DNA from: Gamsiella multidivaricata
Taxonomy: Eukaryota > Mortierellomycota > Mortierellomycetes > Mortierellales > Mortierellaceae
DNA: 64,000 bases
Reading direction: 5' to 3'
Assembly: GCF_025024155.1 (NCBI RefSeq)
Contig: NW_026251720.1
Location: 62,001-126,000, forward strand
In this document: positions 1,791-9,330 of the stretch, in pieces
How the letters are laid out: each line of letters begins with the position of its first letter
How positions within the stretch are numbered: position 1 is the stretch's first letter
The notes under the pieces: generated by a model
The model's database searches: none
The model's input: only the letters and a program-made list of their open reading frames with translations
What the model was told of the DNA's origin: nothing
Made by a program: the position numbers and the translations under genes

Positions 1791-1830
1791 AATCCGAATA
1801 TCCCTTAGACCGTCTCAACTGGAGGGAGAG
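1766..1830 (-). ncRNA. Candidate structured 3' end of the Fanzor transcript (omega-RNA-like), speculative
   Basis: On the minus strand, GTTG-AG-ACGG at 1810-1819 can pair with CCGTCAAC at 1778-1785. This gives an eight-pair stem with a two-base bulge and a 24-base loop spanning the Fanzor stop codon. TnpB and characterised Fanzor guide RNAs come from the 3' end of the nuclease gene and its flank, so the position is right. A stem of this size can occur by chance and there is no expression evidence. Confidence 0.2.
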
Positions 1831-4800
1831 ACAGCCACCTAGGATAAATTTTAACTGATACGGCCAGTACATGTACAGTTATTCGGCGGAGGGGCTCTGG
1901 GCGAGACAGGCTACTGATCCATTCGAGGCCAATATTAGCCAAATTCTGAGCGCCCACGCAGTCCCTGTCTAGCCATCTCTGGCACCCATCCTCAAGGCAG
2001 ACGAACGCCCGATTCGCTGGCTTTGCCATTCTTCGGTCCTTGTTTTGTCGTACACAGCTTGGGCATTTCGATGACGTGAGATACTCATCCGAACAAACGG
2101 CGATGTACCCGAGGCTGTTTGCCTATGTAGTGCAATGGCATGCGGAAACATGGCATCAGTATCGATACTAGGCTGAAAACAAGCAAATCGCAACGAATAT
2201 AGCGAATATCTTTAAAACAACATACCTTGTGAAAAAAATACCCCTTGAAGCTCTCGTGTAGCGATGCCAGCTTGGTATGGGTGTTGAACTTTCCTGGCCC
2301 GTATACAAACATCGCCGGTCTCGTTGGCCCAGTATGCATCCCGCTTTGTGGGTCCACAGTTCGCAATGCCCCATGCACGGCATGATCCTTCTCTGCCCGG
2401 TTCGTCTTTTTGAGCTCCCACAGCTTTTTTTTTCATCGAACGGGATCCGTAAAAATCGCAAAGTGGTTGTAGGACATAGCTGAACTGTCGGAGGCCATGC
2501 CGGTGTTCTCCCATGCTTACGAACGACGACAACGGTAGCGAGGCTTCCAATTCCAATATGCTAGGCGTCTCGCATATGTGCCTACTCAATCCTGCATCGT
2601 CTTTGATTGTGACAGTGGCCCGTTCGCGTTTTTTGGCCTCCAGCGTGGCTCTGAATGACAAGTTGGGACTGTAGAGAGCGGAGCGTCTGATAGGCAGGTT
2701 CGTGACCTGGTTCGGTTTTCGGGGGTCCAGCGCACAAAATGATGCTGAAATTACTTCACCGGGGTCCACCCCCACCCCCACAACATTCTGGAGGTCTTGA
2801 TCGAAAGCCTTTGCGAGAGACCCTTTATTAGGAAATCGCGATGTAATCTCCGGGATCCGCGCCTTAAATTTGGATGACTGCCAACGTCGTTGGATGTCAA
2901 ATGCCATTAGGTGGAGCTGGACTCCGTCTGTTCTCATCATATTGCTGATGGCATAGTACTCCTTAACGCTGTCATTGCTTGGGAGATCGGGGGGCACGGG
3001 GGGCTCCGTGCCTTCGGCAGCTGCTTGTTTCCTAGCCTTGTGATTTGAAAAGACCCTCTTCATGTACCCATCGAGTGCAGCTTGGCCGTATGTGTTTGGA
3101 TGGTCCTTCAGCAATCGGTTCATGGTCGTTGTTTTCTTGCCATATGAAGTCTGGTTCTTGAGGGGATCCGCCTTGATCTCGACCTTGTCTCCGATAAACA
3201 ATTGTCGGAAAAGCTCCCCATATTTCTCTGATGCAAGTTCGTGGGCCGTCTCGGAAGAGCAGACTTGAGTTTCCATGATATGCCGTGTAGGGTGCGTCTT
3301 TGAATTTGGATTGCCCCAAAGAAGTGAAAGAATGGCAGCCTCAGAGCACAAGATGAAAGAGTCTCCCAACTTCGACACTGGACAGAAAATAGGACGCAAG
3401 TCCGACGGCATACGGAGAAAGTACCTCCACCAAGTTTGGATGTGCCCCTTCTTAAATGACACCTTGTCTTTCTGTTTATCGCCGTCGGAGCTCTCGTCAT
3501 CCTCAACTGGAGGTATATCATCGTGAAGAAACGAGCACGCTTCAGCTAATAGAAACAAAAAATAAACGTAAGTTCACAGTGGAAAAGCAAATCGACGCGA
3601 GATAGATCTTGTTCTGGACAGTGGAAATGTTACCTTGTTCACAATGAACTTGGGCAGTCTCTGGGAATGTTCCCGAACCGCGGTCCGGACCTCCACCGCC
3701 AGTTCCGCCTGGATGACGCTCAGGGCAGTCCTTTGTCGGTACGCAATCTGAAAGAACGCTCAGGAAATCGTCATAAATCGAGCGCGCAATTGTTTTCGCC
3801 TGAATTGCCGCCGAGTCTTTAGGTAGTCTCCCGCGGGGTGCTACTGGACCATTCAGAATCAAAGAGATCAGACTTCTGATGATAGTTTCTCCATGTGCCT
3901 TGTGCAGAATGAGATCAAGTGGGTCCGCGTTCTTTTCCTCCTTGTGCTGGACTTTCGGAGCACTCGCTTGATTGACATCAGTGCCCAAGTTCTGGTCTGG
4001 TGCCGGACGCGCTTGATCTGAATTGGATATGGTGGCAGTGCTGACCTCCTTGTAGAGAAAAAGTTCGAGCGCTTTAAACACGAGGATACGAGTTTGGCTC
4101 ATGATGCGGGCCGTCTCGCTGATGCGTTCCGCGACGATCTTGGTCTGGACTACGTTCAGCTTCGTGGCGCGATGCAGGCATCCTGTGATCGACCCTGCAG
4201 TCATTGTGGCAGTCTTGAAAGCCTCTCCGAACAGGCGCTTAGTCAGGTTAGCTCCGGCTCGCCTCTCCGTTTTATCATTTTCCTCGTCCTTCTTGGGTTT
4301 CGCCTTGATTTCACTCCTGGCCTTAGGATTATCATCCATGCTTCCGTCCTTCTTCTTCCGCAGGCGCGGTTCCTCGATGGACATCTTTTCCAATGTGATC
4401 TTGTCGGCCGGGCATGACTGGCTGACGTCCATGACAACATGAGGGGAATAACGAGGGTTGGCATCTCCGTTCCTGCTCTTGTACCTAAGTGACAATCCCA
4501 AAAATTAAAAAAAAATATCAATAAGATGATTGTACCAAAGCGACAAAGCTGTAAAAGGTCGTAATGAATTTGAACTCGCTAACAAAGTCATACGACAATC
4601 ATACCTGCTTCGTCTCCATTTTGCCTCCCGGACTTTCTTACGTCTTACTTTGCCTTTGGGGCGTCGCTTTCTCCGTTGCTGGGCGTTCCCTTTCTCGTGT
4701 CTGCGGCGACGGCGTTGGGTTTGAAGAATTATCTGCTGTCCAGGCGTCTGCAGGCTGTGCTGGACAGGGGAAGAAAACGCCAAGCCTGCAGAAGTGTCGA

Positions 4801-6352
4801 TGGTGAGTGTATCGGCTGGAGGATTTGTCCGCGAGGCTCGAGTCATATTTCTCCTTTGCAGCTTGCACTTCGCGAGCTTCTGGAGTACGCCCAGTATTCT
4901 CTCATGGGTCGTGCACGATGGCGTAGCGGAGTTAAGATAGTCTTCACGCACTTGAACGAAAGCCGAAATGGCGTGAGTGTAGTCGTCCACACCCTTTTTT
5001 TGTCCTCCTCTCGCCCGTTGCAAATACTCTTGGATCAGCTCCTTGATAACCTCAGCCTCAGTCGTCTTGGATCCTGGCGCGTCCATGGTCGATCCATCGC
5101 CTGCTCCGGTCTCGGTTCTCATCTCTCGGATGATCTTGGTGTTTCTTTGGAAGCCGTGCCACGGGAGTGCCTTGGAGTAGTCATTCTTAGTAACGATTGA
5201 TACTAGCAACAGCTCACGGTCGCATGCGAGGTCCAGAGACTCGAGCAGGTCAGCCTTCTTGTACGTGGTAAGCTCTCGGTACTTTCCGACGGGTATAGTG
5301 ATTTCTCTAACACCTTGATATACCTTCATATCACTGTCGGCGGTAATGATTGCGAGGTCGTCTTTGTTGTTATCAGCTTGACACAACTCAGCAATGTGCG
5401 TGTCTGCTTGGAAGGGACATTCGCAGATGTGCCACTCCAAGGTCTCCAGCACATTTCTTATGTCTGCCAGCGCTGCCTTGGATGTCTTGTACGAGTTTCG
5501 ACATTGCTTGTACAGGGGGTCCAAAGAGCCGCTGTTTTTTCCTATGGCGTTGTCAACTCGCACTTCCAGAGCCTTGATCCGGTTGCTGAGGGATATGGCC
5601 CGATCTTGTCGCTCTTGAGACTTTTGTATCGAGGCCTTTCCGTCAAAGTGTAAAACTGTTGTCGATTTGCTAAAGTGCTTTGACATGATTTTGTTGAGAT
5701 CATGCGCTATGTGACCGTAGTTCTGTGACTAGAGATGAGGCGGGGTCGAGGGACGAAGCAACAGAACATGTGTCAGCACTTGGTTGCTATGCTGCGTGTG
5801 CTGATACGAAACCATTGGCACATTTAATTACCTGCTCTGTTGTTCCAGGTCGGTCTGGTGTCAATCGTCCATTAGGGCCAATGGACAATGCAGGATGTTG
5901 CACTCCGGCAGCCTGTACCTCGCTCGCATAACTAGGGCGTGCCTTTCCTCGCTTGGATGGAGCCTCGGAGAAACTCAGGGCGCGCTTCTTGATGCCGCTT
6001 CTCCTGCTAGTGCTGGCGTCTGCAGCAGAAGGCGCGTCTTGCGCTGCTGAGGCTGTGGAGACTACGGGGGCTGTGGGCACTGCGAGAAAGGTCGTCGTTT
6101 CTGTTAGAATGGAAGCCGCTGATGCGCTGGTAGTTGTCGTAGCCGTTGCCTCAGCTCTCGCTTCCTTGGCGACTCTGTTACACGTCGCTTTGAAGGTCCT
6201 TGTTTGCAAGAATCCGAAGTACAGACTTAAGACATCGACATGAACTTTCTTGCTCTGCAGACCATAAGCTAGCGTTCCTTTGGTGTCTTTATAGCTTTGG
6301 GTAGCCCAGTGACTCCCATCTGGTACGATAAAGGCCAAGTCAAAGTAGACAG
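1805..6352 (-). CDS. XPG/FEN1-like nuclease region joined to Fanzor (TnpB-like) nuclease; frameshifted, first exon uncertain
   Basis: Exons: 5832-6352, 4605-5722, 3634-4484, 2226-3545 and 1805-2122; the joins keep phase. Counting from 6352, residues about 25-205 hold XPG-N-like blocks (KKVHVDVLSLYF, then HFDGKASIQKSQERQDR). Residues about 275-360 hold an XPG-I-like block (CPFQADTHIAEL, ITADSDM, VTKNDY). A basic linker follows. A Fanzor N region lies around residue 600. RuvC-I is VGVDPG, with its Asp codon at 2764-2766. Then come SLHESFKGYFFHK, a zinc finger (CPSC ... CLEDGC) and RuvC-III (DRDCVGAQNLANI). About 1,375 residues. A nine-A tract (2425-2433) shifts the frame by one base; dropping one A restores agreement with all downstream motifs. 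An upstream exon ending at 6409 is possible but its phase does not fit, and no MG start was found. Alternative: two adjacent genes. This may be a decaying transposon gene or hold an assembly error. Confidence 0.8.
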
Positions 6353-6852
6353 CTAATGAGGATCAAATTTGGTGCATGTATCCATTCGCAGAAGCATTCA
6401 AGACTCACGTTGAGAATATGCGACAGTGCTTGAGGGCTGATAAGGGAGTGGATGAGGGAAGGAGTGGGGTCAAGGATGTGAGGAATGATTTTTCTTTTAA
6501 GACTCCAAAATCTGCGTCCAAAATGTTCGTATGTTCATGCACTATGTTATGGAAATTGCAGTGTTCACATTGATTATCGGTTATTTCATTCGTATCTAAC
6601 AGTGATTGATCACTGTTCTCATAAACCACCTAGACTGGGGCAGCGAAAAACTGCAGTTGCTGCAAGATAATGTATTTCGTGTCAGGAGGATAATGGTCGT
6701 CTCTGTTCGCAATTACGCGTCACAAGCTAGTCTACGCATCTATCTTGCATCTATCTTGGGCTGAAGCGTGCGGGGGATGCTTTCATTTATTCTCAACCCT
6801 CTCTTTCCCAATACTCATTACTCTTCATCCTCTTCCACCTGCATCTCATACT

Positions 6853-8682
6853 ATGTCAGACAGAAAACTGCCCATCGACAAGAGTGAGCGCATCCTCAAC
6901 GAGCTGCTCAAGATTCCCGTCAATACCATCTGCTGCGACTGTGGAGCTGCCAGTACGTGTCCCAAAGAAACAACACCTTTACGACCTACTCTCCATTGTA
7001 ACCATGCTATCGACAGTCGAAAAATGTAGTATCAATGCGTTTTTCCTCTTTCTCCAATTGTAGATCCAAAATGGGCCTCATACTCGCTTGGATGCTTCCT
7101 GTGTGTGCGCTGCTGCAGTGTGCACCGCAAGATGGGCACCCACATCTCAAAGGTCAAATCCGTCACTCTCGACTCGTGGACACAGGACGATATCGATGTA
7201 AAGCAAACATCGACCGCCCTTTTCACATCAACCTGTACATCTACCGTAGAGAACTGAGGACCAGGAACCTCTTTGACTGACAAAGACATCTGTGTGTTCT
7301 ATTCGTGGCTCTTTAGACAATGAAAAACTGGGGCAATGGCAAGGTCAATGCCATGTATATGCCCCACCCAGAGCGACATCCACCGCCAACAAGCATGGAA
7401 GGAAGGTACATGTCAAGAAACCGCTTGAACTGCTGGAAATGCTATTTTACCGGTACCTTTACTCTAATCACAACCTCATATCCCTCGTCACTTTTTTAGT
7501 GCTATGGAACAATATATCCGGTCCAAGTACGAACGAAAAGAGTTCATGGAGGGTGGAGGAGGCAACAAGCATCAGGTGAGGCCACTTTCTCATGTTACTA
7601 TGGCTATGGTCATGATGGAACTTCAGACACTAATCAGTCTAATCAAACTGTCGCTTCCTTCGCGGCTGCAGCCCTCGTCAAGGTCAGCATACGGTAACAC
7701 ATTCTCCGGAGGAAGAGGCAGCAGCTATAATAACGACATTATCAACACTCAATCCTATACTACCCAAATGTCCGCCCTGCGTGCCATGGGCTTCACCGAT
7801 AACGCTAAGAACCTACAGGTTCTCCAGTCCACGGATGGAGACGTGCCCAACGCGGTCGAAATCCTTTGTCGTATTGGCTCTGGACCTGTTACCTCTTCTG
7901 CCAATCTTTCCGTCTCAAACTCTTCACGCAACAACCATTCGCCGTCAAGAAATTTGCCTCGGCGCAGCCCATCCAGCAATAGCACCAGTGCTGGCGGCAA
8001 CGATCCAAAGGAGACGATTCTCTGGAACATGGGCTTTCATGATACGGCTCTGAATAAGGAGGCACTCCGACGCGCGGGAGGCAACCCCGATGTCGCTGCT
8101 GGGATCTTGATTGATGAGCGGGATAAGTTGGCTCGGGCAGTGAGAGATAAATCGTCGTCTTCGCTGTTACCTGCGCGTCTGGATCCTCCGGGTAGCAACA
8201 AGGTGCAGAAGAACGAGAGTAATCTTTTGTTGGATCTCTCTGACGATAACAGCAATAGCCAGCAGCAACAACAAAATCAGCAGCAGCAGATGTTTCAACA
8301 GCAAATGCAGATGCAAAATGCCTTTGGAAATTCGAGCCAGCAGTGGTCTAACCAGAATTCCATGGATCAGTTCGGTAAGCTCCTCCCTGTGTCTCCTATA
8401 TTTGCACCGAGAACCATCCTATGCAGCTTACCAACAATATCTCACACTTGCGATACAGGTCAAAATCACAACCAACTTCAATCGATCCTGGAAAAGAACG
8501 CGAGCATTCTAGCGCTCTACAATTCAGAGAACAACAACAATAATATGAATAACATGAATGGGATGCACAATATGAATAACATGGGCAATATGTTTGGAAA
8601 TAACACCATGAACAACGCATTTGGCCTCCAGCAGCAACAGCAAACAGGAAACTTTGGCGATATGAACTCATGGGCCTTGAGC

Positions 8683-8721
<39 letters not shown>

Positions 8722-9330
8722 TTGGCCATGAACTCTGCGTTCGGATTACAGGGCAATATGGTCACTGGCAGTAACGCCGGCAACAACCTCTTTGGCAACC
8801 CCAATAACAACAACAATGCCACGAGTATGGGCATGAGCAACACCCCGTCGAGTCTCTTCGGTCTTTCGAATCAAGGATCGGGCAACAATTTCAACAGCGG
8901 CAATGCTTTTGGTACGCTAGGCAGCACAAATTCAGGCTTATCTGGAAACAACATGTTCGGTACGATGAACGCTAACAGCAACACGACAGGTATGGGCGTC
9001 TTGGAATCAACATCGCCCATGACACCATTCAGTACCATATCGAACAATAACAACATGAATACGAACAACAATGCGTTCATGAACGGGACCAGCCAAGGCA
9101 TGAGTCCGATGGGAAACATGGGAACCGGCATGGGCTTGAATAGTACGAATAGTATGAACACTATGAGCAGCATGAATAGTATGGGTGGTATGAACGGGAC
9201 AAACAACAACTTCAACTCGGCCTTCGGACTGAACCAGAACAACAATAGCAACTTTAGTAACTTCAATAACAACAGCAATCCATGGGGGAGCAACAATAAC
9301 AACAGCAACAACAACGGAAACCTCTTCTAG
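6853..9330 (+). CDS. ArfGAP with UBA-like domains and Asn/Met/Gly-rich tail
   Basis: GTPase-activating protein for Arf in vesicle traffic. Exons 6853-6952, 7064-7197, 7317-7405, 7500-7575, 7672-8374 and 8459-9330; phases agree and give 657 residues. Residues 1-120 form the ArfGAP domain: zinc ligands CCDC and CFLCVRC, the catalytic-arginine segment HRKMGTHISKVKSVTLDSW, and EQYIRSKYERKEF. Two UBA-like helices follow (MSALRAMGFTDNAKNLQVL and ETILWNMGFHDTALNKEAL). The last 330 or so residues are Asn/Gln/Met-rich with a run of 13 Asn, and carry repeated AFG-type motifs. The order ArfGAP-UBA-low-complexity resembles Age2/SMAP-type proteins and fission yeast UBA-bearing ArfGAPs. The start is the first ATG before the conserved ERILNELLKIP block. 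Confidence 0.93.

Follow-up and report, generated by a model that had tools for sequence, protein, structure and literature searches.

A 64,000-nt window of the genome of Gamsiella multidivaricata (Mortierellaceae, Mortierellomycota) carries the relic of a gene in which an XPG/FEN1-like part is joined to a Fanzor. The XPG-Fanzor pairing is real and extends beyond this locus, and the fusion is a widespread variant of Fanzor1. The pairing had been proposed in a sequence-only reading of the window, and it was backed by the predicted fold, the genomic order, single long proteins elsewhere, and the co-divergence of the two halves. The interpretation that we slightly favor is that of a decayed transposon-borne fusion gene, whose Fanzor part is predicted to have made a guided cut in DNA and whose XPG-fold part is predicted to have trimmed 5′ ends or flaps.

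Gene anatomy and decay of the window copy

Direct reading of the letters located all of the XPG and Fanzor motifs that the sequence-only reading had named (the XPG blocks, VGVDPG, and the CPSC...CLEDGC finger). The features of the locus are as follows, with splice-site conservation measured across ten sister copies.

1799..6688, minus strand: shared element, the stretch common to the sister copies
5832..6319, minus strand: exon 1, with the MGVTGLPK start (6319-6296), the VHVDVLS block (6245-6225), and a low-complexity Ala/Thr insert
5729..5831, minus strand: intron 1 (GT-AG), both sites retained by all ten sister copies
4605..5728, minus strand: exon 2, the XPG core, with HFDGK (within 5653-5636), CPFQADTH (5419-5396), ITADSDM (5347-5327), and VTKNDYSK (5194-5171)
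4717-4604, minus strand: basic linker of exon 2
4485..4604, minus strand: intron 2 (GT-AG), donor retained by all ten sister copies and acceptor by seven of the ten
3634..4484, minus strand: exon 3, linker and REC-like helical part (judged from position and alignment to relatives)
3546..3633, minus strand: intron 3 (GT-AG)
2226..3545, minus strand: exon 4, with the TDG of the WED part (MMRTDGVQL, 2940-2914), RuvC-I (VGVDPGEV, 2775-2752), and ILELEASLP (2559-2533)
2123..2225, minus strand: intron 4 (GT-AG), acceptor kept in all seven sister copies having that stretch
1805..2122, minus strand: exon 5, with EYLTSSKCPSC (within 2089-2054; alternative RuvC-II Glu and zinc finger), CLEDGC (1999-1982), and RuvC-III (DRDCVGAQN, 1969-1943)
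1799..1884, minus strand: 3′ tail, candidate 3′ part of a guide RNA scaffold

Five minus-strand exons with GT-AG introns were confirmed; the proposed joining of the five in phase was not. The MGVTGLPK start does not share a frame with the VHVDVLS block, which by its position would supply the first catalytic Asp residue of the XPG part; the two are separated by a stop, and the frame is broken between 6272 and 6269. Exon 4 departs from the Fanzor frame at a run of nine A residues (2433-2425), past which the Fanzor continuation GKFNTHTKLASLHESFKGYFFHK lies in the neighboring frame and joins exon 5 in phase; the exon 4 piece past the run reads GKFNTHTKLASLHESF in the neighboring frame. Comparison with the sister copies revealed that 3723-3523 and the tail past 1884 are also frame-shifted. 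A copy on the same contig, L025, is 98% identical to the window copy and has no indel relative to it in exons 1-4, and it therefore shares the frame breaks of these exons. With the frame lost near 6270 and in the A run, the window copy cannot be translated into the full protein in a single frame, and the claim of an intact in-phase gene at this locus is unsupported; the window copy and its twin L025 are relics.

Recurrence of the fusion in Gamsiella and other Mortierellomycetes

The broken frame of the window copy, and the status of the public proteins as predictions, would fit two neighboring genes that were wrongly joined by the exon reading and by gene predictors. We regard this explanation as hardly credible, and the first evidence against it came from the arrangement of the two parts in the genome. 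We merged the matches from four protein queries into 110 XPG-part loci and detected 109 matches to the TNB domain. At 60 of the 110 XPG-part loci, a TNB match followed within 6.5 kb on the 3′ side and in the same orientation (median gap, 2.9 kb), versus five loci with the match 5′ on the same strand, three with it 3′ on the opposite strand, and three with it 5′ on the opposite strand; chance pairing is addressed by this recurrence of the XPG-then-Fanzor order. When exon 2 of the window alone served as the query, this same-strand 3′ arrangement was found within 8 kb at 45 of 65 matches, including 38 of the 49 with less than 60% identity. The intron between the halves is conserved, and at one locus (L047) an open frame of 483 codons spans the junction without interruption, linking the end of the XPG part to the REC part; both observations also argue against two separate genes. 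An XPG part was located 5′ of 59 of the 109 TNB matches and was not detected at the other 50, so the XPG part is not needed for spread, is often lost, or was missed.

The same fused order, which the sequence-only reading had suggested looking for in other fungi, was found in predicted proteins of nine other genera. A query with the N-terminal part retrieved 53 proteins from public sets; we take the named species among them to be all Mortierellomycetes, and the remainder, without a species name, came largely from metagenome sources. The fused-profile query retrieved 23 proteins and the Fanzor-part-only query (built from P0056) retrieved 60 long proteins, P0056 included; every protein in both sets is species-named, and all of these species are presumably Mortierellomycetes as well. 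The XPG profile was present in 40 of the 60 Fanzor-search proteins, a share that is biased upwards by a search range of approximately 726-2310 aa excluding short Fanzors without an XPG part, and in 24 of the 26 proteins of at least 1180 aa, the exceptions being P0089 and P0122. These counts likewise speak against wrongly joined neighbors, and they show the fusion to be frequent in long proteins; its frequency among all Fanzors is not given by these shares. Both parts occur in single predicted proteins, and we take the genera among the 24 to include Gryganskiella, Entomortierella, Linnemannia, Haplosporangium, Dissophora, Mortierella, Podila, Benniella, and Actinomortierella. For P0081, P0082, and P0091, PF00867 and PF07282 both appear in the database's own annotation.

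The two halves have also diverged together, as would not be predicted by a joining error. Distances in the two halves correlated with r = 0.83 among the 16 of 60 proteins from which both halves could be extracted by pattern, none of 2000 permutations gave a correlation as high, and r was 0.87 with the window copy added. The dN/dS ratios of the 30 pairwise comparisons listed (12 for the XPG half and 18 for the linker and Fanzor parts) all fell in the range 0.25-0.80; values below 1 in both halves are expected if both were kept while the element was active.

Folds and catalytic residues of the two parts

Structure prediction of the first half, a check that had been set in advance, recovered a PIN/XPG fold, with FEN1 and EXO1 at the top of the structural rankings. 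Profile ranking of the XPG part placed Rad2, XPG, FEN1, and EXO1 first and listed no XRN. An action of the XPG/PIN part on RNA, trimming a guide RNA precursor instead of DNA ends, is unlikely in view of both rankings, and described Fanzors function without such a part, according to the portion of the source available (PMC10432273). The XPG-part blocks from the second Asp onward align to Rad2. In the Pfam scan, exon 2 gave a sub-threshold match to a 5′-3′ exonuclease domain (E = 0.0034; 17.6 versus 34.3 bits), and none of the six window pieces scanned passed the Pfam XPG cut-offs; PF00867 is annotated on some relatives in the database.

The catalytic acids of the XPG part were assumed to be those of FEN1. 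All seven are present in 15 of the 24 long XPG-bearing relatives, whereas six differ by gaps only and three carry a substituted acid (P0080, P0106, and P0109). The window family lacks the complete set: the third of the seven acids is changed from Glu to Gln (CPFQADTH), as it is in 8 of 8 sister copies that were readable at this site by the pattern used, with ten near copies among the loci searched. Because of this change, we file the window copy as XPG-like in fold and not as an active member, and the relatives are better candidates than the window family for a protein with two active nucleases. To judge from these residues, the second nuclease of the window family may be weak or dead, or its XPG part may be only a structure-specific DNA-binding module.

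A non-cutting role, in which the XPG part binds branched or flapped DNA and positions the Fanzor there, is accordingly the explanation favored for the window's family, in which the low-complexity insert of exon 1 has also been added. However, we consider such a role improbable overall, given the intact seven acids of the 15 long relatives and the dN/dS below 1 in 12 of 12 XPG-half comparisons.

The identity of the second part was supported by both motifs and folds. Two of the six pieces in the Pfam scan had matches (the short piece past the A run was scanned in a frame other than the Fanzor frame), and the last exon passed the cut-off for the Cas12f1-like TNB domain (PF07282; 27.8 versus 26.3 bits). 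The window contains the RuvC-I DPG motif of Fanzor1, the TDG motif of the Fanzor1 WED part, and an alternative RuvC-II Glu six residues ahead of the first zinc-finger Cys (E-YLTSSK-C). The relatives mostly have D-A/G/L-G at RuvC-I, with DPG in a few, and the alternative Glu was found by a narrow pattern in 25 of the 60 Fanzor-search proteins. Models of the Fanzor part match Cas12f and Fanzor structures, and residues 420-1108 of the relative P0059 match solved Fanzor1 structures in fold; the model of the full-length fusion was of low confidence.

The mobile element, its proposed activity, and known systems

Eleven copies, including that of the window, have the same sharp 3′ end (plus strand, TATCCCTTAGACC...), outside of which their sequences appeared unrelated by eye; copies with matching ends, which the sequence-only reading had suggested looking for, were thereby recovered. 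In the window this end lies at 1799, where the plus strand reads TATCCCTTAGACCGTC.... The end pattern occurred 14 times in the genome at no more than two mismatches, and the reversed control did not occur. The 5′ side is variable, and the end of the window element at 6688 looks cut short, since most copies share sequence further out; no target-site duplication and no second end were fixed for the window element. Where a sister copy has an open frame in the 3′ region, its coding sequence ends approximately 80 nt ahead of the element end, and the 3′ tail is well conserved and carries a GTCTC...GAGAC hairpin. The folding energy of the tail was unexceptional in four copies (z from -0.94 to 0.01), and covariation was almost nil (1 of 27 pairs). 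As the folding energy is not unusual, we infer the guide RNA from known Fanzor1.

Several window-family copies have a piggyBac-type element (PF13843) on their 5′ side, in the same orientation. Four loci (L026, L027, L030, and L031) adjoin such an element, with its transposase or remnants of the transposase, and the terminal repeat there opens with nine bases of the window-family element, TATCCCTTA, although it is cut short in L027; L028 has only the start of the repeat. PiggyBac elements duplicate a TTAA target; no TTAA was seen in the 3′-end flanks shown, the opposite end not being fixed. The piggyBac-type element may be the mobilizing system or a mere neighbor.

The location of the gene in a sharp-ended repeated element, together with these adjoining transposases, is consistent with an XPG part that serves transposition, cutting flaps or branched intermediates at the element ends during excision or integration. 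We nevertheless think this quite unlikely. No evidence links the XPG part to the element ends, and the 22 piggyBac-type matches in the genome fall in approximately 12 places compared with 110 XPG-part loci, so that most loci have none adjoining. To our knowledge, DDE transposases need no such helper.

A cut followed by processing of the 5′ ends is proposed because it is the simplest reading of the conserved fusion. The enzymes XPG, FEN1, and EXO1 act on 5′ ends and flaps, and the Fanzors and TnpBs that we know of leave end processing to the host. By analogy with known systems, an RNA from the 3′ end of the element would provide the scaffold and, from adjoining host sequence, the guide. The RuvC site would cut the site that the element had left, or its allele; resection or flap removal by the fused 5′ nuclease would follow and bias repair toward recopying of the element from the homologue or sister. 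In the parts of the reports available, Fanzors cut DNA matching a guide derived from sequence next to the element (PMC10432273), and one Fanzor leaves 5′ overhangs (PMC11423790). A bolder reading, which we rate as somewhat less likely than not, is a phylum-wide, self-contained cut-and-resect machine, an RNA-guided nuclease with a built-in 5′-flap/5′-exonuclease, in which one mobile-element protein would provide both the programmed break and the end preparation for copy-back homologous repair. If true, a natural, conserved fusion of an RNA-guided cutter with an end-processing nuclease would reveal what the basic machine gained through selection and would provide a natural model for editing tools in which cutting is coupled to resection. 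The fusion also makes the service of Fanzors to their transposons directly testable.

The XPG-Fanzor fusion is not described in the literature searched, in which we found no paper naming Fanzor with XPG or Fanzor with Mortierella. In the portions of text available, TnpB and XPG were mentioned together only in Cas12a R-loop work, and Fanzor and FEN1 only apart, with Fanzor in the reference list; none of the papers on Fanzor and flaps among the matches listed looks like such a fusion by its title or the start of its abstract. The word XPG is absent from the main texts of Bao and Jurka 2013, Yoon 2023, Saito 2023, and Xu 2024 as available, the scope being main text and prior notice in supplementary tables being possible.

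The fusion resembles the XPG/FEN1/EXO1/Rad2 5′ nucleases in its predicted fold and in the MG start and the DG...K, EAD, DSD, and NDY blocks positioned where the catalytic acids lie; unlike them, it is joined to an RNA-guided nuclease and carried on mobile elements in many copies, and one acid is changed in the window's family. The piggyBac-type element of the same genome has an inverted repeat that begins with TATCCCTTA, as does the 3′ end of the window element; however, the window copy has no transposase of its own, and no PF13843 match was found on its contig (C24). With Fanzor1 (SpuFz1 and PpFz1; PDB 9ceu and 9cf1), the fusion shares the TNB zinc finger, the TDG of the WED part, a transposon-borne gene ending close to the 3′ end of the element, and, in the window, a RuvC D-E-D with DPG and the alternative Glu. 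The long two-part proteins differ from Fanzor1 in their length of 1180-1358 aa, which results from the N-terminal XPG part and a long linker; certain described Fanzor1s run to approximately 800 residues in the part of the source available (PMC10711439). The Parasitella Fanzor, as presented in the available part of its report (PMC11423790), is likewise a fungal Fanzor1 that has gained an extra domain, but its domain is a RuvC insertion binding cyclophilin, a host protein, whereas the domain gained here is N-terminal and has a nuclease fold.

Genomic setting and twin copy

The XPG-Fanzor element occupies the stretch between a ribose-phosphate pyrophosphokinase gene and an ArfGAP gene, and a close copy (L025) is located elsewhere on this contig, C24, at a distance of approximately 50 kb.

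Features flanking the element (window stretches 1-1680 and 6850-9330) and its twin
One flank, minus strand: ribose-phosphate pyrophosphokinase gene
Other flank, plus strand: ArfGAP gene, then a UBA-containing frame
C24:9834-14360, strand opposite to the window copy: L025, 98% identical to the window copy

The frame breaks of the window copy in exons 1-4 were also present in L025, which lacks the 3' end of the element; judged from these sequences, L025 therefore likely arose after decay had begun.

The piggyBac-type neighbour

Members of the window family were preceded on their 5' side by a piggyBac-type element (PF13843) lying on the same strand as they do (L030:5592-7678, and likewise at L026, L027 and L031). 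The inverted repeats of this piggyBac-type element begin TATCCCTTACTCTG, and their first nine bases are the same as those at the 3' terminus of the XPG-Fanzor element.

Fanzor relatives and the XPG catalytic site

No XPG part was found 5' of the zinc finger in 50 of the 109 TNB (PF07282) matches in the genome; these Fanzor copies may be truncated, may have an XPG part that was missed, or may represent a fusion-free line. The 1409-aa predicted protein P0122 of Linnemannia hyalina carries PF20147 and a TNB domain with no XPG match, perhaps reflecting a further case of domain swapping or a joined gene model.

One XPG catalytic acid is changed from E to Q throughout the family (window 5396-5419 and the sister copies). 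The E is kept at this position in 23 of the 24 long XPG-bearing relatives (at least 1180 aa), that is, in all those covering the site, P0110 having a gap there.
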